64,000 bases of DNA, from contig NZ_LR962863.1 of assembly GCF_900458895.1 (NCBI RefSeq), forward strand, positions 372,001 to 436,000, read 5' to 3'. A model generated the notes under the pieces. The model ran no database searches and was not told the DNA's origin. It saw only the letters and a program-made list of their open reading frames with translations. Below are positions 49,753 through 61,537 of this stretch, one piece after another. Numbering within the stretch: the stretch's first letter is position 1; every line of letters begins with the position of its first letter. The stretch comes from Staphylococcus schleiferi. GTDB taxonomy: Bacteria > Bacillota > Bacilli > Staphylococcales > Staphylococcaceae. The translations under genes were made by a program, and so were the position numbers.

Positions 49753-50355
49753 TTAAGCAAGGCCAGAGAAGACGAACAACACAATGAATACAGCAAGTGC
49801 CCCTATCCATGACCATTTTTGACTGATACGAAAAGAAGAGTGGAGCATAATACCAAAGAACCAAGCTGTAATTATATTTCTTAGGCTGATAGCGCCTAAC
49901 CATTTATTTTTAGGTGCGAAGATGTTTAACGAATCAATACTAACGATGCTTGGATCGATATGGAAAAGCCACTGGATGAAAAGAACAACACAACTTACAG
50001 AAGCCATAATAATCGAGTAACGTAATAATGATGCAAAAACAACTTTAGCTGAGACGTTTGATTTAAAAATCTTTGTTATTACCCAAGTGATTAAGAAGAA
50101 TATCGCTAATAAAAACCAAGAGACAATAAAAGTCCCAATCACACTTGCCACTCTCGTTATTGACAACGCTTGCTCAGCTTCAGTCGGCGAAAGCCCCACC
50201 TGATTGATGAGCACATCATTAAAGTCTATGAGTAAGGTGGTTAATAAACTCATTAAACAAGCGAGAATAGTAAAAACCAGAATTTTAACCAGAACTTTAG
50301 GTTGATGCCTCTCTTTAACAAAAGATTCAATATGTAATAGTTTTGAGTAATTCAT
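49753..50355 (-). CDS. Yip1-domain membrane protein
   Basis: 200 residues with five predicted membrane segments (about 22-45, 75-105, 115-140, 155-175, 180-200). The fold resembles YIP1-type integral membrane proteins, common and uncharacterised in staphylococci. Its N-terminal segment LLHIESFVKERHQPKVLVKIL parallels that of the next, broken gene on the plus strand, so the two are divergent paralogues. Function unknown. Confidence 0.7.
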   Translation of the reverse strand: MNYSKLLHIESFVKERHQPKVLVKILVFTILACLMSLLTTLLIDFNDVLINQVGLSPTEAEQALSITRVASVIGTFIVSWFLLAIFFLITWVITKIFKSNVSAKVVFASLLRYSIIMASVSCVVLFIQWLFHIDPSIVSIDSLNIFAPKNKWLGAISLRNIITAWFFGIMLHSSFRISQKWSWIGALAVFIVLFVFSGLA

Positions 50356-50533
50356 GAATTGCCTCCCTAAATTATATTTATATTAGATTGTATCATTAAA
50401 ATTTATAATTTTATACTTTATATTGTAGTTTTCTCATATGTTATGGCATATTTTAGAATTTTTAACTTTTAATAGTATATTTTACCTTGCAATGTGATAA
50501 TATAATATTAACTTTTTAGAGGAGGATTTAAAG

Positions 50534-51175
50534 TTGGTCAAAACGAAGCTCCCTTTATTCTAACATTTTGAAAACTTACGGGATTATCCAACGTGGAAAG
50601 TCAAGTCGTTTTTACTTATTTTGATTACTGTTATTTATTCTTTAATATTAAAATATGACACAGATAATACCGAGTTGTTAGAAGGCTTTGGCTATTCTAA
50701 ACAAGATATAGAAGAAATTCATCAAATTCATTGGCTAACCGATGTTTCAAGCAGTCTGATGGGTGGCGTGATTAGCTTTCTATTTACATTTGTTGTTTTT
50801 ATGATGATTTCGAAATTTCTAAATTCAGATGTGACACCTAAGACGATATTATCAGCCTCTCTAAGCCATTCGCTTATTGTGACAACTGTTTCATTGGTTG
50901 TTATTGTGATTCAACTTGCATTACATTTACCTGCACCAGCTTACATTATTACAAGTTTGAATATCTTTCTTCCAGGTAACACCTACCTCGCTGCTTTTGA
51001 TGTGCAGACGATATTTAAAGGGTATGTGACATTTATCGTCTATTATGCGACGAGCCGCTTATCATTACGTGCTTCCTTAATTTTAGGCTTATTAACAATT
51101 GTACTCATTGTCTTGCTAGCATTAGGCTCGGCTTTCTTAGAAGATACGATTTTGAGCTTGGCTGCTGAATTATAA
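50534..51175 (+). pseudogene. Yip1-like membrane protein gene with nonsense codon 10
   Basis: A TTG at 50534, 8 bases after AGAGGAGG, opens a frame reading VKTKLPLF, then TAA at 50561-50563, then continues in the same frame as HFENLRDYPTWKVKSFLLIL into 184 further residues with five membrane segments. The restored product is about 213 residues, close to its 200-residue paralogue at 49753-50355. Downstream in-frame start codons have no ribosome-binding site, so the gene is probably silent, or only weakly reinitiated. Confidence 0.65.
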
Positions 51176-51274
51176 AACAATTATTAAATATTTTGAATAC
51201 ATAAAATATGGAGTCCTTTTTAATGTTATAATACAGAAAAATACAAATTATAACATTAAGGAGGATTTTTAATT

Positions 51275-52330
51275 TTGAAGAAGAGGACATTAATCGCATT
51301 GTCAATCATTGGCATTATCTTTTTGACAGGAATTGCTTTTCTCGTTAAAAACTTTAGTCATATCGGTGGAGGCAATGATGGCGAAGGATACAATACATAT
51401 ACAGTAAAAAGCGAAAAACCAATTCGTATTTCTGGGAAAGTCTCTCCAGAAACAATTAAAACATACTTAAACAATGCGCAACTCGGAACATTTCTAAGTA
51501 CACAAGTTGAAGACGGTCAAAGTGTATCTCAAGGCACACCGCTGATTAACTATGATATTGATGGGGCACAACGTCAAAAATTGAATGATCAACTTTTAAA
51601 AGCACAACAAAGTGGTGATCAACAAGCGATTAATACGGCTTGGAAGCAACTTAATCGATATGACGGTCAAGTAAATAATAGTATCAATGCGACATTTGAT
51701 GGCACAATTTCATTAATCAATCGACAACAAGTGGGTGAAGGCGAGCCTATCCTTAAACTGATTTCGAAAGAGCCAATTATTCAAACGACAGTTTCTGAAT
51801 TTGATTTGGATAAAATTAAAGTTGGCGACATGGTTAATATTGAAGTCACAAGTTCTGGTCAAAAAGGTAAAGGTAAAATTAAAAGCATCGCACAACTTCC
51901 AACAAGTTATGATCAAGATAAAGGACAACAAAGTGAAGCGACAGCTGGAAGTCTAGATGAAAATGCACATGGAGATGCGCAAACATTAACGACTAATAAT
52001 CCAGTCGATGCACATCCATCAGGTCAAAATGATAAAGAAACTTCAAAATATAAAATCATCATTGGGGACCTTGATTTTAAAGTTAAAACAGGATTCTCCG
52101 TTGAAGCAAATATTCCTTTAGATACGCTTAAAATACCTAAATCTGTTTTAACTAAAGATAACCATGTATATAAAGTGGATAAAAATAATATTGCACATCG
52201 TACAAAAATTAAGTATGACGAAAAAAATGGTGATTTCATTGTGACGCAAGGTATTGAAAAGGGTGAACATTTAATACAAAATCCAGACTCAAAAATTAAA
52301 GATGGGGAGAAAGTAGAGGTGGCCAAATGA
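51275..52330 (+). CDS. Membrane fusion (HlyD/MacA-like) protein of an ABC efflux system
   Basis: 351 residues from a TTG nine bases after AGGAGG. One N-terminal membrane anchor (about 7-27), then lipoyl/barrel-sandwich and beta-barrel regions: GTFLSTQVEDGQSVSQGTPLINYD and FDGTISLINRQQVGEGEPILKLIS are the paired lipoyl halves. A Gln/Asp-rich insert lies near 215-250. With the next two genes it forms a MacAB/YknXYZ-type system that exports peptides or drugs, or protects against toxic peptides. Substrate unknown. It overlaps the ATPase gene by 4 bases. Confidence 0.82.
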   Translation: MKKRTLIALSIIGIIFLTGIAFLVKNFSHIGGGNDGEGYNTYTVKSEKPIRISGKVSPETIKTYLNNAQLGTFLSTQVEDGQSVSQGTPLINYDIDGAQRQKLNDQLLKAQQSGDQQAINTAWKQLNRYDGQVNNSINATFDGTISLINRQQVGEGEPILKLISKEPIIQTTVSEFDLDKIKVGDMVNIEVTSSGQKGKGKIKSIAQLPTSYDQDKGQQSEATAGSLDENAHGDAQTLTTNNPVDAHPSGQNDKETSKYKIIIGDLDFKVKTGFSVEANIPLDTLKIPKSVLTKDNHVYKVDKNNIAHRTKIKYDEKNGDFIVTQGIEKGEHLIQNPDSKIKDGEKVEVAK

Positions 52331-53010
52331 TTGAGCTTAAAAAGATCAATCGTCACTTCAAAAATGGGAATACGCATAATCATATTTTAAAAGATATCGA
52401 TTTAAAAATTAATGAAGGCGAATTTGTCGCTATCATGGGGCCTTCTGGTTCAGGTAAAAGTACCTTGATTAATATACTTGGTTTTATTGATCGCGGTTAT
52501 GAAGGAGAATACTTATTTGATGGCGAAAATTATCAAAAACGTTCTGATAATGAGTTGGCTGCTATTCGAAATCGAACTGTTGGATTTGTCTTTCAAAATT
52601 TTAAGTTGATTCAAAACAATACGATACTAGAAAATGTTAGTATTCCGTTGCTTTACGCAGGTCTTCGTGCTTCTGAACGTAATGACCGTGTAATTGAGAT
52701 GTTGCATCGAGTTGGTTTATTCGAGAAAGAAAACTTGGTGCCCAACAAGCTTTCAGGCGGACAACAACAACGTGTTGCGATTGCGAGAGCCATAGTAAAT
52801 CAACCGAAGTTTATCATTGCTGACGAGCCAACGGGAGCGCTTGATTCAAAAACTTCAAAAGACATTATGGCATTGTTTTTACAACTCAATAAAGAACAAG
52901 GGACCACAATGATTGTGGTGACGCATGATCCTAAAGTAGCTGAACAAGCGGACCGTGTGATTCATATTCTCGATGGTCGTGTTCAAAAAGAAGAGGTGTT
53001 GAAACGATGA
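52327..53010 (+). CDS. ABC transporter ATPase, MacB/LolD type
   Basis: 227 residues. Walker A GPSGSGKST, Q-loop FVFQNFKLI, signature LSGGQQQRV, Walker B FIIADEPTGALD and switch MIVVTHDPKVA are intact. The NNTILENVSIPLLYAG segment is typical of the MacB-type cluster. It overlaps both neighbours by 4 bases, so fusion protein, ATPase and permease form one operon. Confidence 0.92.
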   Translation: MIELKKINRHFKNGNTHNHILKDIDLKINEGEFVAIMGPSGSGKSTLINILGFIDRGYEGEYLFDGENYQKRSDNELAAIRNRTVGFVFQNFKLIQNNTILENVSIPLLYAGLRASERNDRVIEMLHRVGLFEKENLVPNKLSGGQQQRVAIARAIVNQPKFIIADEPTGALDSKTSKDIMALFLQLNKEQGTTMIVVTHDPKVAEQADRVIHILDGRVQKEEVLKR

Positions 53011-54182
53011 CCTATTTCGGTAATATTATACACGTTGCATTGAAGTCAATTATGAAAAACAAGCGCCGTAATATTTTTACTATGATTGGGATTATTATAG
53101 GTATAGCTGCTGTTATTACCATTATGTCTTTAGGGAATGGTTTTAAAAAGACAGCAAACGAGCAGTTTAGTGATGCGGGGGCTGCAAAAGATACAGCATT
53201 AGTGAGCTTTACGCCTGACGACTTTGAACCGATTAAAGACGCTCCTTTTACTGAAACGGAAATTGATATTGCGCGCCAAGTGAAAGGTGTTCAAGATGCT
53301 AGTATTAAAGAAGATGAAAGCTCAGGTTTAATATCTGAAGCTAAAACGGTTAATAAGAAAACAGATATTGCAGTCGTTAAAAGTGAATCGGTGTCAGGTG
53401 TTTCTGATGGAAAAGGCTTTACAAAAGGTGATAATGCTTTAAAACAACGTGTTGCTGTCATCTCTTCAGAAGTAGCTGACACACTTTTTAAAGGTAACGT
53501 GAAAGGCAAAACCATTTATATAGATGATATGGGATTTGAAGTCGTAGGTGTGAAGGATAAAGCACAGCTCTCAGATGCTGTTCAAATCCCTACAAAGACA
53601 GTTGAAACTTATTTACCTCATCTAAAATCTGCGTTTCCGCAACTTGTGTTAAAAGTTGGAGAAGATGCGAATAAAAAAGAAATTGCAACACGCGTGGCTG
53701 ATCAACTGAACAAAAAGGGTGCAGCTATTGATCAAGGTCAATATGTATACTCAGATACTGAAGAATTAATGAAAGGGATTGGCAAAATATTTGATTCAAT
53801 CACTTACTTTGTTGCTGCTGTCGCAGGGATTTCACTATTTATAGCAGGTATTGGCGTGATGAATGTGATGTACATCTCTGTAACAGAACGGACAGAGGAG
53901 ATTGCAATTCGACGTGCATTTGGTGCAAAAGGCCGTGATATAGAATTACAATTTTTAATTGAAAGTGTCATTCTATGTCTGATTGGCGGTATCATTGGTT
54001 TAATCATTGGAATATTGATTGCAGAGTTAGTCGATGCCGTTACACCGGAATATATACAAAGTGCAGTCAGCTTCGGTTCCATCGTACTTGCGGTAGGAGT
54101 ATCCACATTAATTGGTATTGTGTTTGGTTGGATTCCTGCAAGAGCTGCAGCTAAAAAAGAATTAATTGATATTATCAAATAA
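53007..54182 (+). CDS. FtsX/MacB-type ABC permease
   Basis: 391 residues with the MacB topology: one N-terminal membrane segment (about 20-42), an extracytoplasmic domain (about 45-265), and three C-terminal segments. NKRRNIFTMIGIIIGIAAVITIMSLGNGFK and GIGVMNVMYISVTERTEEIAIRRAFGAKGRDI are family signatures. It works with the ATPase and fusion protein before it. A hairpin at about 54205-54257 follows. Confidence 0.9.
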   Translation: MTYFGNIIHVALKSIMKNKRRNIFTMIGIIIGIAAVITIMSLGNGFKKTANEQFSDAGAAKDTALVSFTPDDFEPIKDAPFTETEIDIARQVKGVQDASIKEDESSGLISEAKTVNKKTDIAVVKSESVSGVSDGKGFTKGDNALKQRVAVISSEVADTLFKGNVKGKTIYIDDMGFEVVGVKDKAQLSDAVQIPTKTVETYLPHLKSAFPQLVLKVGEDANKKEIATRVADQLNKKGAAIDQGQYVYSDTEELMKGIGKIFDSITYFVAAVAGISLFIAGIGVMNVMYISVTERTEEIAIRRAFGAKGRDIELQFLIESVILCLIGGIIGLIIGILIAELVDAVTPEYIQSAVSFGSIVLAVGVSTLIGIVFGWIPARAAAKKELIDIIK

Positions 54183-54204
54183 ATTTCACGGTTTCATTAA
54201 AAAG

Positions 54205-54258
54205 ATGACTAGGGTTATGCAGTGCTTAAAAAGGAGCGCATGTGTGGTCCTAGTCATT
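54205..54258 (+). terminator. Possible terminator of the efflux operon
   Basis: ATGACTAGG (54205-54213) pairs with CCTAGTCAT (54249-54257), with inner pairing ATGC/GCAT. It is followed only by TTTC, so termination is likely but not certain. Confidence 0.6.
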
Positions 54259-54343
54259 TCAATGTTTTTGCACTTTTATAAGATATTGGTTTCTTATGTC
54301 CGCATGATAATATAGAGCTCAGATGATTCAAGCGTATCTCACA

Positions 54344-54378
54344 CAAAAAAACGGTCGATGTGTAGTCACACCAACCGT
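54344..54378 (-). terminator. Terminator of the lipase operon
   Basis: On the minus strand ACGGT and ACCGT with inner GTGT/ACAC form a hairpin followed by seven T residues. It comes 27 bases after the stop of the small peptide gene. Confidence 0.75.
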
Positions 54379-54404
54379 AAAAACCCTAGCGCTTCATTTT
54401 GAGA

Positions 54405-54473
54405 TTAGAATTTAAAGACGTTTCTTAATACTTTAAATAAAGAAAGTAATAACTCTAACGGTGTTCCACTCAC
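54405..54473 (-). CDS. Small amphipathic peptide downstream of the lipase (22 aa)
   Basis: GTG start at 54473, nine bases after a perfect AAGGAGG, TAA at 54405-54407. The 22-residue product begins SGTPLELLLSLFKVL. Polar residues fall at 4, 7, 11, 14, 17/18 and 21, with Leu/Val/Phe elsewhere: a clean amphipathic helix with net charge about +2, as in phenol-soluble modulins. It starts 18 bases after the lipase stop and ends before a terminator, so it is in the lipase transcript. It has no signal peptide. An ATG at 54480 gives a 15-codon non-amphipathic frame too close to the ribosome site. Not similar enough to a known PSM to be named. Confidence 0.6.
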   Translation of the reverse strand: MSGTPLELLLSLFKVLRNVFKF

Positions 54474-54490
54474 TATGCATCGCCTCCTTG

Positions 54491-56392
54491 TTATTTTACA
54501 ACTTCTTCTGTTTTAACTAAATCATCTGCAAGTTTAAGCCAGAAATTTTGAAGTTGTTCTTGTGTATGATTCGTATCGTTCGTATCTTGACCGACAAAGT
54601 CGACATGATCCCAACCTTCAAGGACTGGTGTCACTTGCCAAATGCCTTTTTGGATTTGGTCTGTAGCGTTTGTCCATGCTTGGTTATATGGATGTTGAGA
54701 AGAAACAACAGAGACAAGACCATCATTGACACGCCAATCTTTTTCAGGAGCTTTACCGATAACGTTAGCCGTTAAAGCAAATGTTAAAAATAGATCGCGA
54801 TTTGCTTTTTGTTTACCTGATAGCGTTGCGTGTGTCGCTTCTCCTGTATAAGTTTTATAAACTATATTTGGATTGAGTGAAGTATGTTTATTGATTTCAC
54901 TTGCACCTTCACGTGTTAAATCATAAAAACCAGTATCTTTTGTTTTCCACAGTTTATTATTATTTTTGATGCGTTCAGTATAGGCTTTATCTGTTTCGCC
55001 AGGTTTACGTTTAAGTCCCCATTGGTTAAGACCAAAGTCGACACGCGCATCATTTTTAGCTAATGCAGCTGCGAAATCAAATACAAATTGTCTTACGATA
55101 GGCTCATTACCGAGTGAGTCCGCTGCGTGTGTTCCGTTATGAGGCGTACCTAAAGTCGTAATTGAAGCGACCATGTTATCGTGTCCACCTTCAAATAAAG
55201 GCGAGATTGTGCCACCATGTTTTTTATGGTATTCAATTTCTTCTTGACTACCGTTACGGAGTAATTCTTCTAACACACGAATCGTTTGACCACCCATACT
55301 ATGACCTACAAGATGGATCTTTTTGCCAGGTTCCCAATCTTTATAAATACCTTCATACGTATTACCGTAACGGGCATGTCCATATTTTGCTGCATGCGCT
55401 GCACCGTAATCAACACGACCACCTTTTATGTAGTAATACAGTTCTACAGCGCGGTCATAGTTACTACCAAATGCGCTGACACTTGCTTCATAAGTGTTGT
55501 AGCCATTTTCTTCTAAATATTGACGAATATTGAGCTTTTCTCCACCCCAATAATGTGAGAGGACAGTAGGATTTTTATCATCCACAAAGCCGTTAAAGCC
55601 ATGAACTAAAACAATTGGTTCTTGGTTTTTATAATAGTTTTGTTTCGCTTTTTGACTGGGTTGTTCATTTAACTTTTCAGCTTGACGTTGACGACTTTGC
55701 GTTTGAGTTGTCGCTTTCTCTTGTTCTTTTGTAGAAGTTAAATCCGTTTTGACAGGCTGTCCGACATGGGGTTTCGTCCATTCATTTGATTTGAGTGTTT
55801 GAGGCGCGGCCGTTTTCTCATCTTTTACAGCGTAAGTTGCAGATGATGTAGGTTGAACGGTCTGCTTGCTTTCTGTTTGTTTTTCATCTGATGGTGTCGT
55901 TGAAGGTGTATTTTCATTTGATGCTTTTTGAGTAGGTGCTTTGACAGGAGAATTCAAAGGTTGTTGAGACACTTGAGGTGTTTTGACATGATTTTCAGTT
56001 TGTGTAGCATGCGTCAATGGTGCAGGTGCTGTCGTGTCATGGTTAGATGCATGTTCTTTTTGATTGTTTTGAGCGGTTGCGTTTTCGTCGGTTTGCGTTT
56101 GAGCGTTATATTTCTCGGTTGTACTTCGTTCACTTTGTGCTTGAGATACATCGTTATTTGATTGTGTTTCTGTATCTTTTAAAGATTTTTGTGATTCTTC
56201 ATCAGAAGCTTGCTGTTGTTTTTCTAATTGGGTATGTGCCTGATGAGAAGCGTCACTTGGTTCTTGACCCCCGTATGTAGATTCAGCTGAAACAGGCGTT
56301 TGTAATAGCCCGATGAAAAAGAAAGAAGCAATAACAGCTGATGATGCCCCGATTTTAAATTTACGAATTCTGTAGACATGTTTTTGTTTCAT
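54491..56392 (-). CDS. lip: Secreted triacylglycerol lipase (YSIRK pre-pro-lipase)
   Basis: 633 residues from the ATG at 56392 after GAGGTGGG. The signal peptide carries the YSIRK-type motif (YRIRKFKIGASSAVIASFF). A Thr/Gln/Ser-rich propeptide covers about 38-240. The mature lipase begins near PIVLVHGFNGFVDDK (oxyanion loop); the nucleophile is in LVGHSMGGQTIRV, and the catalytic His in EGWDHVDFVG near residue 600. It hydrolyses host or skin lipids outside the cell. It is flanked on the same transcript by two small amphipathic peptide genes. Length and architecture match staphylococcal lipases of the Geh/Sal family. Confidence 0.92.
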   Translation of the reverse strand: MKQKHVYRIRKFKIGASSAVIASFFFIGLLQTPVSAESTYGGQEPSDASHQAHTQLEKQQQASDEESQKSLKDTETQSNNDVSQAQSERSTTEKYNAQTQTDENATAQNNQKEHASNHDTTAPAPLTHATQTENHVKTPQVSQQPLNSPVKAPTQKASNENTPSTTPSDEKQTESKQTVQPTSSATYAVKDEKTAAPQTLKSNEWTKPHVGQPVKTDLTSTKEQEKATTQTQSRQRQAEKLNEQPSQKAKQNYYKNQEPIVLVHGFNGFVDDKNPTVLSHYWGGEKLNIRQYLEENGYNTYEASVSAFGSNYDRAVELYYYIKGGRVDYGAAHAAKYGHARYGNTYEGIYKDWEPGKKIHLVGHSMGGQTIRVLEELLRNGSQEEIEYHKKHGGTISPLFEGGHDNMVASITTLGTPHNGTHAADSLGNEPIVRQFVFDFAAALAKNDARVDFGLNQWGLKRKPGETDKAYTERIKNNNKLWKTKDTGFYDLTREGASEINKHTSLNPNIVYKTYTGEATHATLSGKQKANRDLFLTFALTANVIGKAPEKDWRVNDGLVSVVSSQHPYNQAWTNATDQIQKGIWQVTPVLEGWDHVDFVGQDTNDTNHTQEQLQNFWLKLADDLVKTEEVVK

Positions 56393-56437
56393 TTTTTCCC
56401 ACCTCATTTGAATATTGTTTGTAAAAGTTAGCCAAAG

Positions 56438-56503
56438 TTAAATAAAGATATTGATCAGTATGCGAGGTAACCACTCAAGTAATTGCGCTAAATAAACCGA
56501 CAT
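56438..56503 (-). CDS. Small amphipathic peptide upstream of the lipase (21 aa)
   Basis: ATG at 56503, seven bases after a perfect AAGGAGG, TAA at 56438-56440. The 21-residue product begins SVYLAQLLEWLPRIL and ends in a run of Ile/Asn/Phe. Polar residues fall at 7, 10, 14 and 18, one per helical turn, with Trp and Pro mid-helix; net charge about zero. This is the pattern of delta-lysin/PSM-like surfactant peptides. It is the first gene after a near-consensus promoter, with the lipase start 46 bases later and no terminator between. It could instead be a translated leader that tunes lipase expression. Confidence 0.6.
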   Translation of the reverse strand: MSVYLAQLLEWLPRILINIFI

Positions 56504-56526
56504 ATAAACGCCTCCTTATAATTTTT

Positions 56527-56550
56527 CTTTTTGAAAGGGTTTTCAAAAAG
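56527..56550 (-). promoter_or_regulatory. Perfect inverted repeat at the start of the lipase operon
   Basis: CTTTTTGAAA (56527-56536) and TTTCAAAAAG (56541-56550) are a perfect 10-bp dyad with a 4-base centre. It lies just downstream of the predicted transcription start, so it is either an operator or a 5' mRNA stem-loop. Confidence 0.6.
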
Positions 56551-56559
56551 GATATATAA

Positions 56560-56588
56560 ATAATACATTAAGTTCAAATAATTGTCAA
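56560..56588 (-). promoter_or_regulatory. Lipase operon promoter
   Basis: On the minus strand TTGACA (56588-56583, exact consensus) is followed after 17 bases by TATTAT (56565-56560). It is the strongest promoter match I found in the window. Confidence 0.8.
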
Positions 56589-56722
56589 ATTTTTTTAATT
56601 AAGTACCTTGAAATATTTGTTGTTTTAAAAATAGATGTTTTTTAAAGAATATATTTCTAAAGCATGTTTGTAGTTGTTGGCACAGTGGTATGTTAGAATA
56701 GAATGAACTGGAGGCTTATATT

Positions 56723-56857
56723 ATGAAACAATGTTATAAATTGTCTGCATACATTTTTGGCGGTATTGCAGTAGCAGTGCTAGCAGGTGTGGCATACTTG
56801 TCATACCAACAATATCAGCAAGATGAAGAAATAATGAATGACAATTTCAAAGCTTAG
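56723..56857 (+). CDS. Small membrane protein, 44 aa
   Basis: ATG at 56723, eight bases after GGAGG, TAG at 56855-56857. The product has a short basic start (MKQCYKL), one membrane span (about residues 8-27, FGGIAVAVLAGVAYLS) and a polar Gln/Asp/Glu-rich tail. I do not recognise it. It lies between the divergent lipase operon and czcD; a hairpin AGGTGAAT/ATTCACCT follows at about 56870-56898. Confidence 0.6.
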   Translation: MKQCYKLSAYIFGGIAVAVLAGVAYLSYQQYQQDEEIMNDNFKA

Positions 56858-56943
56858 TCGAAAAAATTGAGGTGAATGCGGTGAGACCGTATTCACCTCG
56901 TGTCGTTTATGGGCAATGAGAAAAATTATCAAGGAGGGATATG

Positions 56944-57885
56944 ATGTCAAGAGGAAACTATTCTCATCACGTGGAGCATAGAAAAAAACAGACGCATTCC
57001 AAAATGACTTTGTGGTTGTCACTCATTATTACGCTCTTTTTTACAGTTGTTGAATTTTCTGGAGGGATTATTTCCAACTCGCTAGCGTTATTATCAGATT
57101 CGTTCCATATGTTAAGCGATGTCTTTGCACTTGCTTTATCGATGCTTGCTGTCTATTTTGCGAGTCGAAAACCTACTGCACGATATACATTTGGGTATTT
57201 GCGTTTCGAAATTCTCGCTGCTTTTTTAAATGGTTTGGCATTGGCAGTGATTTCGGCATGGATTTTTTATGAAGCGATTGTCCGTATTATTTTTCCAAAG
57301 CCTGTAGAAAGTGGTTTAATGCTTGTCATTGCTACAATTGGCTTAATTGTAAATATAGTACTAACCATCATTTTAGTGCGGTCATTGAAGAGCGAAAATA
57401 ATATTAATATCCAAAGTGCGCTGTGGCATTTTATGGGAGACTTGTTAAATTCAATCGGTGTCATTGTTGCAGTTGTATTAATCTACTTTACAGGTATTCA
57501 GTTAATTGACCCCATTTTGAGTATGGTGATTGCGTTGGTGATTTTGCGTGGCGGGTATAAAATCATGCATAATGCCTGGTTGATTTTAATGGAATCTGTA
57601 CCAGAACATTTAGATACCGATGAAATTATGGAAACGATGAAATCTGTTAATCAAGTGTTAGACGTCCATGAGTTCCATTTATGGTCAATTACGACAGAGC
57701 ATTATTCACTCAGTGCTCACGTCGTTTTGGATAGTCGAAGTAGTGTGGATGCGTATCAAACAATTAATAAGCTTGAAACATTGTTGAAAGAAAAATATGG
57801 TTTGGCACATACGACACTGCAAATTGAACATTTAGTGATCAATCATTTAGATGAAGCTTACTTTGAAGAAGTGAAAAATGAATAG
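56944..57885 (+). CDS. czcD: Cation diffusion facilitator CzcD
   Basis: 313 residues; the ATG at 56944 is six bases after AGGAGG and fits better than the one at 56941. Six membrane segments lie in about 18-215, with paired HxxxD/DxxxD-type metal sites in LLSDSFHMLSDVFAL and ALWHFMGDLLNSIGV. The C-terminal cytoplasmic domain (about 220-313) has the usual ferredoxin-like fold with VHEFHLWSITTEHYSLSAHVVLD. It exports Zn, Co or Cd. The usual regulator czrA is not adjacent. Confidence 0.92.
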   Translation: MSRGNYSHHVEHRKKQTHSKMTLWLSLIITLFFTVVEFSGGIISNSLALLSDSFHMLSDVFALALSMLAVYFASRKPTARYTFGYLRFEILAAFLNGLALAVISAWIFYEAIVRIIFPKPVESGLMLVIATIGLIVNIVLTIILVRSLKSENNINIQSALWHFMGDLLNSIGVIVAVVLIYFTGIQLIDPILSMVIALVILRGGYKIMHNAWLILMESVPEHLDTDEIMETMKSVNQVLDVHEFHLWSITTEHYSLSAHVVLDSRSSVDAYQTINKLETLLKEKYGLAHTTLQIEHLVINHLDEAYFEEVKNE

Positions 57886-57930
57886 ATATCGCGTTTAATT
57901 TAACATAACTAGAGAAATGTATTTGATTTT

Positions 57931-57988
57931 AAAAGCGTCAATACGAGCATGCTGAGTTTTTAACTTAGATGCGGCGATTGACGCTTTT
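57931..57988. terminator. Bidirectional terminator czcD / urea transporter
   Basis: AAAAGCGTCAAT (57931-57942) pairs with ATTGACGCTTTT (57977-57988); T-runs flank it on both strands between convergent genes. Confidence 0.85.
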
Positions 57989-57989
57989 T

Positions 57990-58913
57990 TTATGAGGAGG
58001 TTTTAATTCGATTTGGAGGAGGTGTTTGACCAGCAAGTAACAGTGTCCACGTCACTAAAATAAATGGGAATGTTAACGCAGGAAGTCCGATAGGTTCAAA
58101 GAATGTTGCAGTGGCTGCATACATCATCGGTGTCATTATAACTGCCAATAAAAAGACAAGTATGGGATGAAAATGGCTTTTTGAACGGAATGTAACACCA
58201 ACTGCAATGACGGTTAGCATTAAGTTGAAGCCAAACAGACCTTCATTAAGACTACCGATATCTGCGCCCATAAAGAACTCAAGAAGTAAACCTAATAAAT
58301 TCGCTATGAGGAGATAGAGACCAGCACGTCGAGAAGCAATCCAACAAGCAATGACAATTAAAAGCCCACTTAACACATGTTCAATAAGGAAAATTTGACT
58401 GACATTGTTAAAAAAAGCAAACACTGGATGGAAAGGTGTATTTAAATCAATGTGAATGTGAGAGGTTAATGGTAAGACCGCTACATTCGTTTGGATAAAC
58501 TTAAACTGTTGAGACATTAATAAAACGAGCCATGTTAGAACGACAAATGGCGTTGTCAGCTCTGGCAAATGTAAAGGCTTTAAGAAGTTTTTAATTGCTT
58601 GAGCAATTGGCATTGCAAGTAAAATACAAATTAAAATAATCATCACGTTTTGCCAAGACCATACTAAAAAAAGTGTTAAATCAATAGCAATTAATACAGG
58701 ATTAAAACCAGCCAGGCCTGCTTGGATTTCCGATTCGGTATAATTAAAAAAACGGGCGGTTAATAAACTGAGCAAGCTACCGACCATTGCGGCGAATCCA
58801 ATTTTCCAATTGCCAATCCATAACGCAATTAAAATAATGAGACCTGTCCAAGTATTTTCTAAGAGCACGACTTGGGAGATGTTTTTGAAAAAAGTATGTA
58901 TCCATGTTGGCAT
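57990..58913 (-). CDS. Urea transporter (UT family)
   Basis: 307 residues, about ten membrane segments in two homologous halves. Each half carries the UT signature: LPELTTPFVVLTW at about 120-132 and LPALTFPFILVTW near 280-292. FNPVLIAIDLTLF and FNLMLTVIAVGV are the paired pore helices. It lets urea enter for the urease encoded just downstream on the opposite strand. The locus is therefore a urea-use island even though the urease is damaged. Confidence 0.88.
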   Translation of the reverse strand: MPTWIHTFFKNISQVVLLENTWTGLIILIALWIGNWKIGFAAMVGSLLSLLTARFFNYTESEIQAGLAGFNPVLIAIDLTLFLVWSWQNVMIILICILLAMPIAQAIKNFLKPLHLPELTTPFVVLTWLVLLMSQQFKFIQTNVAVLPLTSHIHIDLNTPFHPVFAFFNNVSQIFLIEHVLSGLLIVIACWIASRRAGLYLLIANLLGLLLEFFMGADIGSLNEGLFGFNLMLTVIAVGVTFRSKSHFHPILVFLLAVIMTPMMYAATATFFEPIGLPALTFPFILVTWTLLLAGQTPPPNRIKTSS

Positions 58914-59079
58914 GTTTTTTCACGCCTTTCTCTCTCGTGATATTGTTTCAGAATATGCTTTAACTTTACCACTTTAACAGCGTATATAACCACTATATTA
59001 CGATAATATTAAAAGTAATGAAAGAAATATATTATAAAATAAAATATAGTTGAAAGCTTTTATAAAATAGCATTATCGT

Positions 59080-59108
59080 TTGAAAGTGATTTTCGAAGAA
59101 TCTATAAT
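59080..59108 (+). promoter_or_regulatory. Urease operon promoter
   Basis: TTGAAA (59080-59085) and TATAAT (59103-59108) are separated by 17 bases, about 47 bases before the ureA ATG. The rest of the 58914-59154 gap is AT-rich with nothing else recognisable. Confidence 0.65.
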
Positions 59109-59154
59109 GAGAGGCGTAATCACTTATTTTTACATTGTTAAGGAGTGGACTGAC

Positions 59155-59457
59155 ATGTATTTTACACAATGAGAGCAAGACAAGTTGATGATTGTCGTCG
59201 CAGCAGATTTAGCGCGTAGACGAAAAGAACGAGGGCTAAAATTAAATCATCCTGAAGCAGTTGCCTTAATTAGTTATGAAATCTTAGAAGGGGCGAGAGA
59301 TGGCAAGTCTGTCGCCGAATTAATGAGTTATGGAAGAGAAATTTTAACAAAAGATGATGTCATGGAGGGTGTTGATGCAATGGTGACTGACATTGAAATA
59401 GAAGCCACATTTCCTGATGGCACAAAGTTGGTAACCATTCATCATCCCATTGTATAG
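59155..59457 (+). pseudogene. ureA: Urease gamma subunit UreA with nonsense codon 6
   Basis: ATG at 59155, after AAGGAGTG, opens MYFTQ, then TGA at 59170-59172, then [25 protein letters not shown] and the rest of UreA in the same frame. Other staphylococcal UreA proteins have Arg here (MHFTQREQ), so CGA to TGA explains it. The full frame would be 100 residues, exactly the family length. Reinitiation at TTG 59185 or ATG 59188 would lack 10-11 N-terminal residues and has no good ribosome site. The signature [19 protein letters not shown] and DVMEGV are intact. Confidence 0.85.
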
Positions 59458-59468
59458 GAGGAATAAAC

Positions 59469-59825
59469 ATGAAACCTGGTGAAATCATTGTTAAAAAGTC
59501 AGAAATTACAATCAATAAAGGCAGAGAAACGACAAAACTCAATGTAAAAAATACGGGTGATCGTCCTATTCAAGTCGGTTCACATTTTCACTTTTATGAA
59601 GTGAACCCCGCACTCGCGTTTGATCGTGACGATGCTTACGGAAAACATTTAGATATTCCTGCAGGGGCTGCTGTGCGTTTTGAACCTGGAGATGAAAAGA
59701 CAATTTACCTTGTACGTTACGCTGGACGTCAACATATTTATGGTTTTCATGGTCTTGTCGATGGCCCGATTGATAGATCAAAGGTGACACCACCAAATGT
59801 CGAAGAGGGAAGTGAAGACAAATGA
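59469..59825 (+). CDS. ureB: Urease beta subunit UreB
   Basis: 118 residues. [48 protein letters not shown] is the conserved core, with [24 protein letters not shown] after it. It is shorter than S. aureus UreB because the variable C-terminal tail is missing, which is tolerated in the family. GGAGG precedes the ATG, and the stop overlaps the ureC ATG (ATGA). Confidence 0.92.
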
Positions 59826-61537
59826 GTTTTAAAATGACAGATGCGCAATATACCAGTTTATATGGGCCGACAGTAGGAGATTCGATTCGTCTTGCAGATA
59901 CAGATTTATTTGCGAAAGTAGAAAAAGATTATGCCAATTATGGTGATGAAGTCACTTTTGGTGGTGGCAAGTCCATTCGTGATGGTATGGGTCAAAATCC
60001 AAATGCTACAAGAGCACATCCACAAGTTGCAGATCTTGTCATTTCCAATGCGGTGGTCATTGATTATAACAAAGTGATTAAATGTGATATTGGTGTGAAA
60101 GATGGTCGTATTATGAAGTTAGGTAAAGCGGGTAATCCAGACATTATGGATGACGTTGATATCATTATTAGCGCTTCAACAGATGTCATCGCAGCAGAAG
60201 GTCGCATTGTAACTACAGGCGGAATTGATACGCATGTGCACTTTATTAGCCCTGAACAAGCAGAGGTTGCATTAGAAAGTGGCATTACGACGCACATTGG
60301 TGGTGGTACAGGAACTTCAGAAGGCACCAATGCTACAACAGTTTCACCAGGTGCTTGGTATATCCATCGAATGCTTCAAGCAGCAGAAGGTTTACCACTG
60401 AATATCGGTTTTACTGGGAAAGGCCAAGCGGTAAACCATGAAGCACTAGAAGAACAAATACGTGCTGGGGTCATTGGCTTGAAAGTTCATGAAGACTGGG
60501 GTGCCACACCGTCTGCATTGCGACATGCATTAGAAGTTGCAGACGAATATGATATTCAAATTGCGTTACATGCCGATACACTAAATGAAGCAGGATTCAT
60601 GGAAAATACGATGAAAGCTATCGGTGATAAAGTCCTCCACATGTATCATACTGAAGGTGCGGGAGGCGGACATGCGCCTGATTTGATAAAGTCAGCATCT
60701 TATCCGAATATTTTGCCGTCTTCTACAAATCCAACCTTACCGTACACACATAATACGATTGATGAGCACTTGGACATGGTAATGATTACACATCATCTCA
60801 ATGCTTCAATTCCTGAAGATGTGGCTTTTGCTGACTCTCGAATTCGTAAAGAAACCATTGCTGCAGAAGATGTCTTACAGGATATGGGCGTTTTTAGTAT
60901 GGTGAGTTCCGACTCCCAAGCAATGGGCCGTGTGGGCGAGGTCATCATACGCACATGGCAAGTGGCGCACAGAATGAAGCAGCAAAGAGGCCCGCTTGAA
61001 GGCGATGGAGAACACAATGATAACCGCCGAATCCAACGTTATATTGCCAAATATACGATAAATCCTGCGATAACACATGGGATTTCTGATTATGTGGGTT
61101 CAGTAGATGAAGGAAAGCTTGCTGATTTAGTGATATGGGATCCGCGTTTCTTCGGCGTCAAACCAGAAATGGTCATTAAAGGCGGCATGATTCATGTCGC
61201 CGCAAATGGAGATGCGAATGGATCCATTCCAACAGCTGAACCGGTAAAATATCGTCGTATGTATGGTCAATATGGCAGTAATATACAAAATACAGCAATC
61301 ACCTTTGTTTCTCAAGCGGCATATCACGATGATATTCGCAGTCAGCTCGATTTAAAACGACAGGTCAAACCTGTACATAACATACGAAATCTTTCTAAAA
61401 AAGATATGATTAATAATAACGCGATGCCACGAATTGATGTCGATCCACAAACGTACGAAGTCTTTGTAGATGGCAATAAAATTACAAGTGAAGCGGCCAC
61501 AGAACTTCCGTTGGCACAACGTTACTTTTTATTTTAA
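59822..61537 (+). CDS. ureC: Urease alpha subunit UreC
   Basis: 571 residues, full length. Nickel ligands are visible: His pair in [10 protein letters not shown], carbamylated Lys in [11 protein letters not shown], and His residues in [11 protein letters not shown] and [12 protein letters not shown]. The active-site flap reads [16 protein letters not shown]: the catalytic His is kept but the usual flap Cys (VCHHL) is Thr. From memory, S. xylosus urease shares this substitution and is active. No ureE, F, G or D follows; a repeat and then tarI come next. Activity would also depend on the broken ureA and on accessory genes elsewhere. Confidence 0.95.

Follow-up and report, generated by a model that had tools for sequence, protein, structure and literature searches.

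Why is a secreted lipase gene of Staphylococcus schleiferi flanked on both sides by an open reading frame of little more than 20 codons, and would the encoded peptides do anything for the enzyme? The window that we analysed is a stretch of 64,000 nucleotides (bases 372001-436000 of the 2.52-Mb genome). A preliminary description of its sequence had proposed that, on the minus strand, a near-consensus promoter, a 21-codon peptide gene, a lipase gene, a 22-codon peptide gene and a terminator form one unit, that the peptides resemble phenol-soluble modulins (PSMs) and that they emulsify lipid or membranes for the lipase. We found its interpretation to be partly supported.

A lipase gene between two small peptide genes

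The layout proposed for the minus strand, from 56588 to 54351, was confirmed, with a promoter matching the consensus at 11 of 12 positions and a terminator-like stem after the second peptide gene. The elements, in the direction of transcription and all on the minus strand, are as follows.

56560-56588, minus strand: sigma-A-type promoter, TTGACA-17-TATTAT, 11/12 consensus match
56527-56550, minus strand: perfect 10-bp leader hairpin, downstream of the promoter and upstream of the Shine-Dalgarno site, found by sequence inspection and a hairpin scan
56511-56517, minus strand: Shine-Dalgarno site of lspU, AAGGAGG
56438-56503, minus strand: lspU, first peptide, 21 amino acids, from the open reading frame list; profile match G000:C1:428441-428503, E 9.5e-11, which is not independent since the window peptide is one row of the profile (A1)
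54491-56392, minus strand: YSIRK triacylglycerol lipase, 633 amino acids, of the lsp-bearing (SAL1-type) group by NF047351, PF24708 and the tree
54483-54489, minus strand: Shine-Dalgarno site of lspD, AAGGAGG
54405-54473, minus strand: lspD, second peptide, 22 amino acids, GTG start, from the open reading frame list; profile match G000:C1:426411-426470, E 4.9e-9, likewise not independent since the window peptide is one row of the profile
54351-54378, minus strand: intrinsic-terminator-like site at the operon end, 12 pairs (6 of them G-C) followed by a T run

Both small genes thus carry the perfect Shine-Dalgarno site ascribed to them. The lspU stop codon lies 45 nt before the lipase start, and the lipase stop codon 17 nt before the lspD start; across the 49 loci in which the lipase start could be set, the first of these gaps measures 23-62 nt. 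The promoter-like site ahead of the genes and the terminator-like site behind them are consistent, on sequence alone, with a single polycistronic mRNA. Weaker promoter-like matches occur inside the operon, in about the number expected by chance. Among the nine rows of the sub-group to which the window's lipase belongs, TTGACA is the top -35 element in each, and the distance from the end of the -10 element to the LspU start is 51-69 nt.

The window's lspD begins with GTG, whereas 60 of 61 LspD loci use ATG. An out-of-frame ATG stands 7 nt upstream of this GTG (54480-54471, minus strand). Because of the GTG start and the upstream ATG, the amount of LspD made may be below that of relatives with an ATG start.

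We also considered the leader hairpin (56550-56527) as a regulatory element. It may be regulatory: a scan of the sub-group relatives (loops of at most 8, longest stem only) reported no such hairpin, but inspection by eye showed an imperfect counterpart of seven pairs in S. coagulans. An Rfam search gave no family at gathering score; its two sub-gathering matches are on the plus strand, and we took them as chance.

The lipase belongs to one lineage

The enzyme matched NF047351, the YSIRK-targeted triacylglycerol lipase family of NCBIfam, with 850.9 bits and Lip_C of Pfam (PF24708) with 666.2 bits, and in a profile search of the PDB its matches included the solved structures 'Lipase 2' and 'Lipase 46 kDa form'. 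S. coagulans is the sister species of S. schleiferi, and the closest named relative of the window lipase that we found is in S. coagulans DSM 6628 (86% identical over the best-matching part of the lipase), the sole locus with the lipase in our scan of genome contigs. Across the genus, 73 of 84 genomes gave a match to the lipase query. The S. schleiferi genome itself has two other lipase genes, L002 and L003/L004, which are 45-46% identical to the query and fall outside the peptide-bearing group of the tree; neither lsp peptide flanks either of them. The second of these (G000:C1:2444347-2446090) occupies two frames, as if broken.

We built a tree of 123 lipases, after dropping 14 duplicate or fragment rows. 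One group of 67 rows (SH-aLRT 96), to which the window lipase belongs, takes in all 63 rows that bear a peptide label, and none of the 56 rows outside carries one; this was a 'quick' tree with long branches, including that of locus L077. The locus survey corrects three of its rows: L036_-2285 had been wrongly marked as lacking LspU, and L036_-4241 and L035_-4857 show L008 and L010 a second time. Our SAL1 label is provisional: it follows PMC12607899, which in its available text links lspU and lspD to SAL1 orthologues in most species.

The peptides recur beside this lipase across the genus

The preliminary description had suggested searching other staphylococcal lipase loci for small frames, and that search proved productive. 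In S. coagulans (L005) we found the same operon, with both peptides in the same positions and each with a Shine-Dalgarno site. For the genus we used profiles A1 (20 rows) and A2 (22 rows), chosen from 39 distinct LspU and 47 distinct LspD peptides. At E <=0.01, LspU was found in 47 of 84 genomes (56 matches) and LspD in 56 of 84 (63 matches). LspU is supported by recurring in 46 further genomes, among them S. coagulans, many of which also supplied profile rows. This survey and the synteny with S. coagulans support the view that the three genes form a conserved unit.

The matches are tied to the lipase. Genome-wide, at the same threshold, each of the 63 LspD matches has a lipase match within 172 nt, and 52 of the 56 LspU matches have one within 1317 nt, with the variable N-terminal part of the lipase in between. 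Of the remaining four LspU matches, three adjoin a YSIRK-type start close to the end of a contig, and the last, on G053:C35, adjoins an N-terminal match (G053:C35:132-434). The 84 genomes showed no orphan lsp copies: every LspU match with a readable neighbour stands beside a YSIRK-type lipase start or match.

We then counted peptides by lipase locus, having skipped four rows and marked nine as fragments. With a border at 530 bits, chosen after inspecting the locus data, and with near-identical species pairs left unmerged, the 67 non-fragment loci at or above the border comprise 46 with both peptides, 14 with LspD only, four with LspU only and three with neither, while the 57 below it comprise one with LspD (L077, still inside the lsp group of the tree) and 56 with neither. 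Four of the 14 loci with LspD only could be explained, leaving ten: L037, L040 and L042 run into the end of a contig and have their LspU on other contigs, and in L056 the lipase frame contains stops and LspU sits farther upstream of it. The lsp peptides are therefore common, yet not universal even within the lsp-bearing lipase group.

Two loci depart from the usual form. At L047 (G011:C78:84500-93500) lipases of the lsp group stand in tandem, one of them split into two parts; each is followed by an LspD, and our searches detected no LspU at the locus. At L028 (G032:C1, near 113820) lspD has an early stop, after 15 codons.

A family-wide search of 108 genomes, including the 84, added two more, G105 and G106, both from one other genus, in which both peptides flank a lipase of about 69-70% identity.

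Both peptides are under purifying selection

Conservation of amino acids over bases had been proposed as the point on which the peptide genes would stand or fall. We compared codons in 20 hand-picked pairs of loci, 17 of them usable for LspU and 18 for LspD. LspU showed 82.8 synonymous and 55.2 nonsynonymous changes, where 101.5 nonsynonymous changes were expected, and LspD showed 90.7 and 55.2, where 104.7 were expected. For each peptide the ratio of nonsynonymous to synonymous change is 0.24 of neutral in these hand-picked pairs, and 16 of 17 LspU pairs and 17 of 18 LspD pairs had a smaller number of nonsynonymous changes than expected. The pairs are not all independent; L041-L058, for one, does not join sister loci, so the p-values (9.4e-17 for LspU and 1.2e-17 for LspD) are too small. 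Between the window and S. coagulans, with start codons excluded, the synonymous and nonsynonymous changes number 6 and 3 in LspU and 6.5 and 5.5 in LspD; by NG86, dN is 0.068 and dS 0.660 for LspU, and dN is 0.128 and dS 0.599 for LspD. We conclude that LspU and LspD are real genes under purifying selection; the outcome that the preliminary description had named as refuting them did not occur.

The reading of the peptides as chance small frames behind good Shine-Dalgarno sites, to which the 154 open reading frames of at least 20 amino acids listed in 50000-60500 lend some plausibility, is already refuted by conservation at a fixed place and the excess of silent changes, and with the Ribo-seq peaks and reporter fusions given for S. 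aureus in the available text of PMC12607899 its probability is negligible.

The description of both peptides as helices with one polar residue per turn was roughly right. For the window peptides, the helical hydrophobic moment exceeds that of shuffled sequences only modestly (p 0.049 for LspU and 0.016 for LspD), and such a moment is not a measured helix. The families are stronger: the mean z is 1.91 for LspU, with values above 0 in all 39 distinct peptides and above 1.64 in 31 of them, and 2.75 for LspD, with all 47 distinct peptides above 1.64. Invariant positions are the central Pro-Arg and the C-terminal Asn and Phe in the 20 aligned rows of LspU and, besides the start, Leu8, Ser11 and Phe20 in the 22 aligned rows of LspD. 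The net charge is 0 for the window LspU, where the family mean is 1.44, and +2 for the window LspD.

Neither peptide matched a Pfam, NCBIfam or PHROGs family at E <=1, queries of 21-22 amino acids scoring poorly in such searches, and profile searches of the PDB gave no match to either, which for queries of this length says little. We also compared the two peptide profiles with each other for a common origin; the probability of 23.5% (E 8.6e-4, from a single comparison) was unconvincing.

The S. aureus counterpart

The preliminary description knew of no described example, but the system is already known, the operon having been in print since September 2025. In the available text of PMC12607899 (Muruzabal-Galarza et al., mBio), the lspU-sal1-lspD operon of S. 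aureus encodes LspU and LspD, two 21-residue amphipathic peptides on the sal1 mRNA, which were detected by Ribo-seq and validated by GFP fusions; LspU and LspD were found there in 26 and 31 Staphylococcus species, respectively, with SAL1 orthologues in most. LspD had been seen earlier by Nikoleit et al., as cited in that text. S. schleiferi is not named in the paper's main text, and a search of the open-licence literature by name found no other paper on LspU.

The operon of the window is almost certainly the lspU-sal1-lspD operon of staphylococci. As far as that text allows comparison, the two are alike in gene order, in peptide lengths to within one residue, in the type of lipase that bears lsp genes and in having amphipathic peptides tied to one lipase type across the genus. 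Besides the host species, they differ in the leader, which is about 50 nt in the window (inferred from the -10 element) and 113 nt in S. aureus, in the gap between lspU and the lipase gene (45 nt against 24 nt), in the gap between the lipase gene and lspD (17 nt against 27 nt) and in the GTG start of the window lspD. Given the uncharged LspU and the shorter leader, regulation may differ from that in S. aureus.

What the analysis adds is modest: a codon-level selection test, the finding that all readable cases are linked to a single lipase lineage, and the occurrence in a second genus. Codon selection, synteny and the lipase tree confirm independently that both peptides, though not represented in family libraries, are genuine genes over much of the genus and go with one lineage of lipases. 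For annotation, loci of the lsp-bearing lipase lineage should be checked for lspU and lspD.

A proposed lipase-retention mechanism

In the S. aureus experiments, as far as the available text of PMC12607899 describes them, LspU is exported through the PSM transporters, and constitutive LspU shifts lipases from the supernatant to cells and aggregates, the lipase being active in the cell pellet. Carried over to S. schleiferi, these results suggest the following. A single mRNA, driven by the promoter at 56588 and ended by the terminator at 54351, would encode LspU, a secreted SAL1-type lipase and LspD. LspU, leaderless and amphipathic, would leave the cell through the PSM transporters and would self-associate at the cell surface and in biofilm, holding the lipase made along with it. 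The enzyme and its fatty-acid products would then be kept near the producing cells, where diffusion would otherwise carry them off. LspD, last on the message, is probably a second lipase-partner helix acting with LspU, a role that is wholly inferred.

The gene order, the signals, the conservation, the purifying selection and the linkage to the lipase are established in the present analysis. Translation, the single mRNA, LspU export and lipase trapping under constitutive expression are established for S. aureus, as given in the available text of PMC12607899, and the same events probably occur in the window species. We regard the identity of the operon and the lipase-retention mechanism, taken jointly, as fairly probable. 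Several points stand against them. The trapping evidence, as the paper's available text presents it, comes from constitutive LspU expression and not from loss of the native lspU. The pair is not obligatory, since the 67 higher-scoring loci include ten with LspD only that are unexplained, four with LspU only and three with neither. The window LspU, moreover, is uncharged and its leader shorter than that of S. aureus.

Alternative roles for the peptides

Given the tie to one lipase lineage, a role as lipase partner is a sharper hypothesis than that of one more PSM. A stricter form of it is conceivable, in which LspU and LspD are a dedicated two-peptide set that binds one lipase lineage and positions or assembles the enzyme extracellularly. 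Such a set would account for the finding that every LspD match and every readable LspU match adjoins a lipase, and for the absence of the peptides from other YSIRK lipases. If it were true, the co-evolved unit would be the lipase with its two helices, and its occurrence in two genomes of a second genus would place its origin before the genus Staphylococcus, unless it was transferred. LspU also trapped SAL2 in S. aureus, according to the available text of PMC12607899, which disfavours strict specificity, and we hold this form to be possible but well on the doubtful side.

The surfactant proposal of the preliminary description, in which the peptides emulsify lipid or disturb membranes to give the lipase access to substrate, draws on two amphipathic, leaderless peptides of 21-22 amino acids co-encoded with a lipase, and PSM surfactant activity is raised in the discussion of PMC12607899. 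In the same paper, within the text available, expression of LspU in S. aureus cut the lipase in the supernatant and kept it with the cells, the authors think that aggregation lowers free PSM surfactant, and activity on lipid is absent from what is reported. A general surfactant would, moreover, be odd given the linkage to one lipase lineage. We therefore think an emulsifying role unlikely, and lipase retention, by carry-over from S. aureus, is the better supported of the two.

The position of lspU between promoter and lipase, the short and bounded distance to the lipase start and the 10-bp leader hairpin, with its imperfect S. coagulans counterpart, would suit a leader peptide or cis-acting regulator of lipase translation, working by attenuation or coupling, whose sequence mattered little. 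The amino-acid sequence is nevertheless conserved, beyond what translation alone would call for, and such a role leaves lspD behind the lipase unexplained. A stop codon in lspU left SAL1-GFP unchanged in S. aureus under the conditions tested (PMC12607899, available text), and the hairpin was not reported in other sub-group relatives and has no Rfam family at gathering score. We consider regulation of this kind improbable.

Alpha-class PSMs are leaderless amphipathic helices of about 20-26 residues. The window peptides match in length, in having no leader and in their predicted amphipathy. The PSM analogy of the preliminary description stands, and it gains from S. aureus LspU using the PSM exporters in the available account of PMC12607899. 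Size and amphipathy would also fit a reading of the peptides as ordinary alpha-class PSMs, expressed from the lipase promoter but functionally unconnected to the enzyme. The authors of PMC12607899, in its available text, class LspU and LspD with the alpha-class PSMs, Bakta names LspD a putative PSM-alpha3, and LspU aggregated with PSMs as well as trapping SAL2. Unlike such PSMs, LspU and LspD occurred only beside one lipase type in the genomes searched; the 84 genomes gave no LspD match, and no LspU match with a readable neighbour, away from a YSIRK-type lipase start or match. Neither peptide matched an NCBIfam or Pfam family at E <=1, although queries so short score poorly. The other staphylococcal YSIRK lipases (SAL2 in the terms of PMC12607899, a provisional label here) belong to the same family and have no flanking lsp peptides, and in the available text of that paper no small-frame Ribo-seq signal is reported around S. 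aureus sal2. We give ordinary PSMs little credence and continue to favour lipase retention.

Neighbouring genes

A MacAB-type cassette on the plus strand (51275-54182), composed of an adaptor-like protein, an ATPase and a permease, is convergent with the lipase operon. The permease is found next to the lsp lipase in L006, L008, L009, L010, L011 and L047 as well, and a 57% relative occurs in L080, a locus without lsp; both observations come from short flanks.

On the other side, beside the lipase promoter, an open reading frame for 44 amino acids of membrane type (56723-56857, plus strand) has a counterpart in S. coagulans (82%) and others at five further lsp loci (L007, L009, L011, L036 and L047) at 48-69%. 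It matched no curated NCBIfam or Pfam family above the cut-off. A strong terminator-like inverted repeat follows it at 56868-56900.
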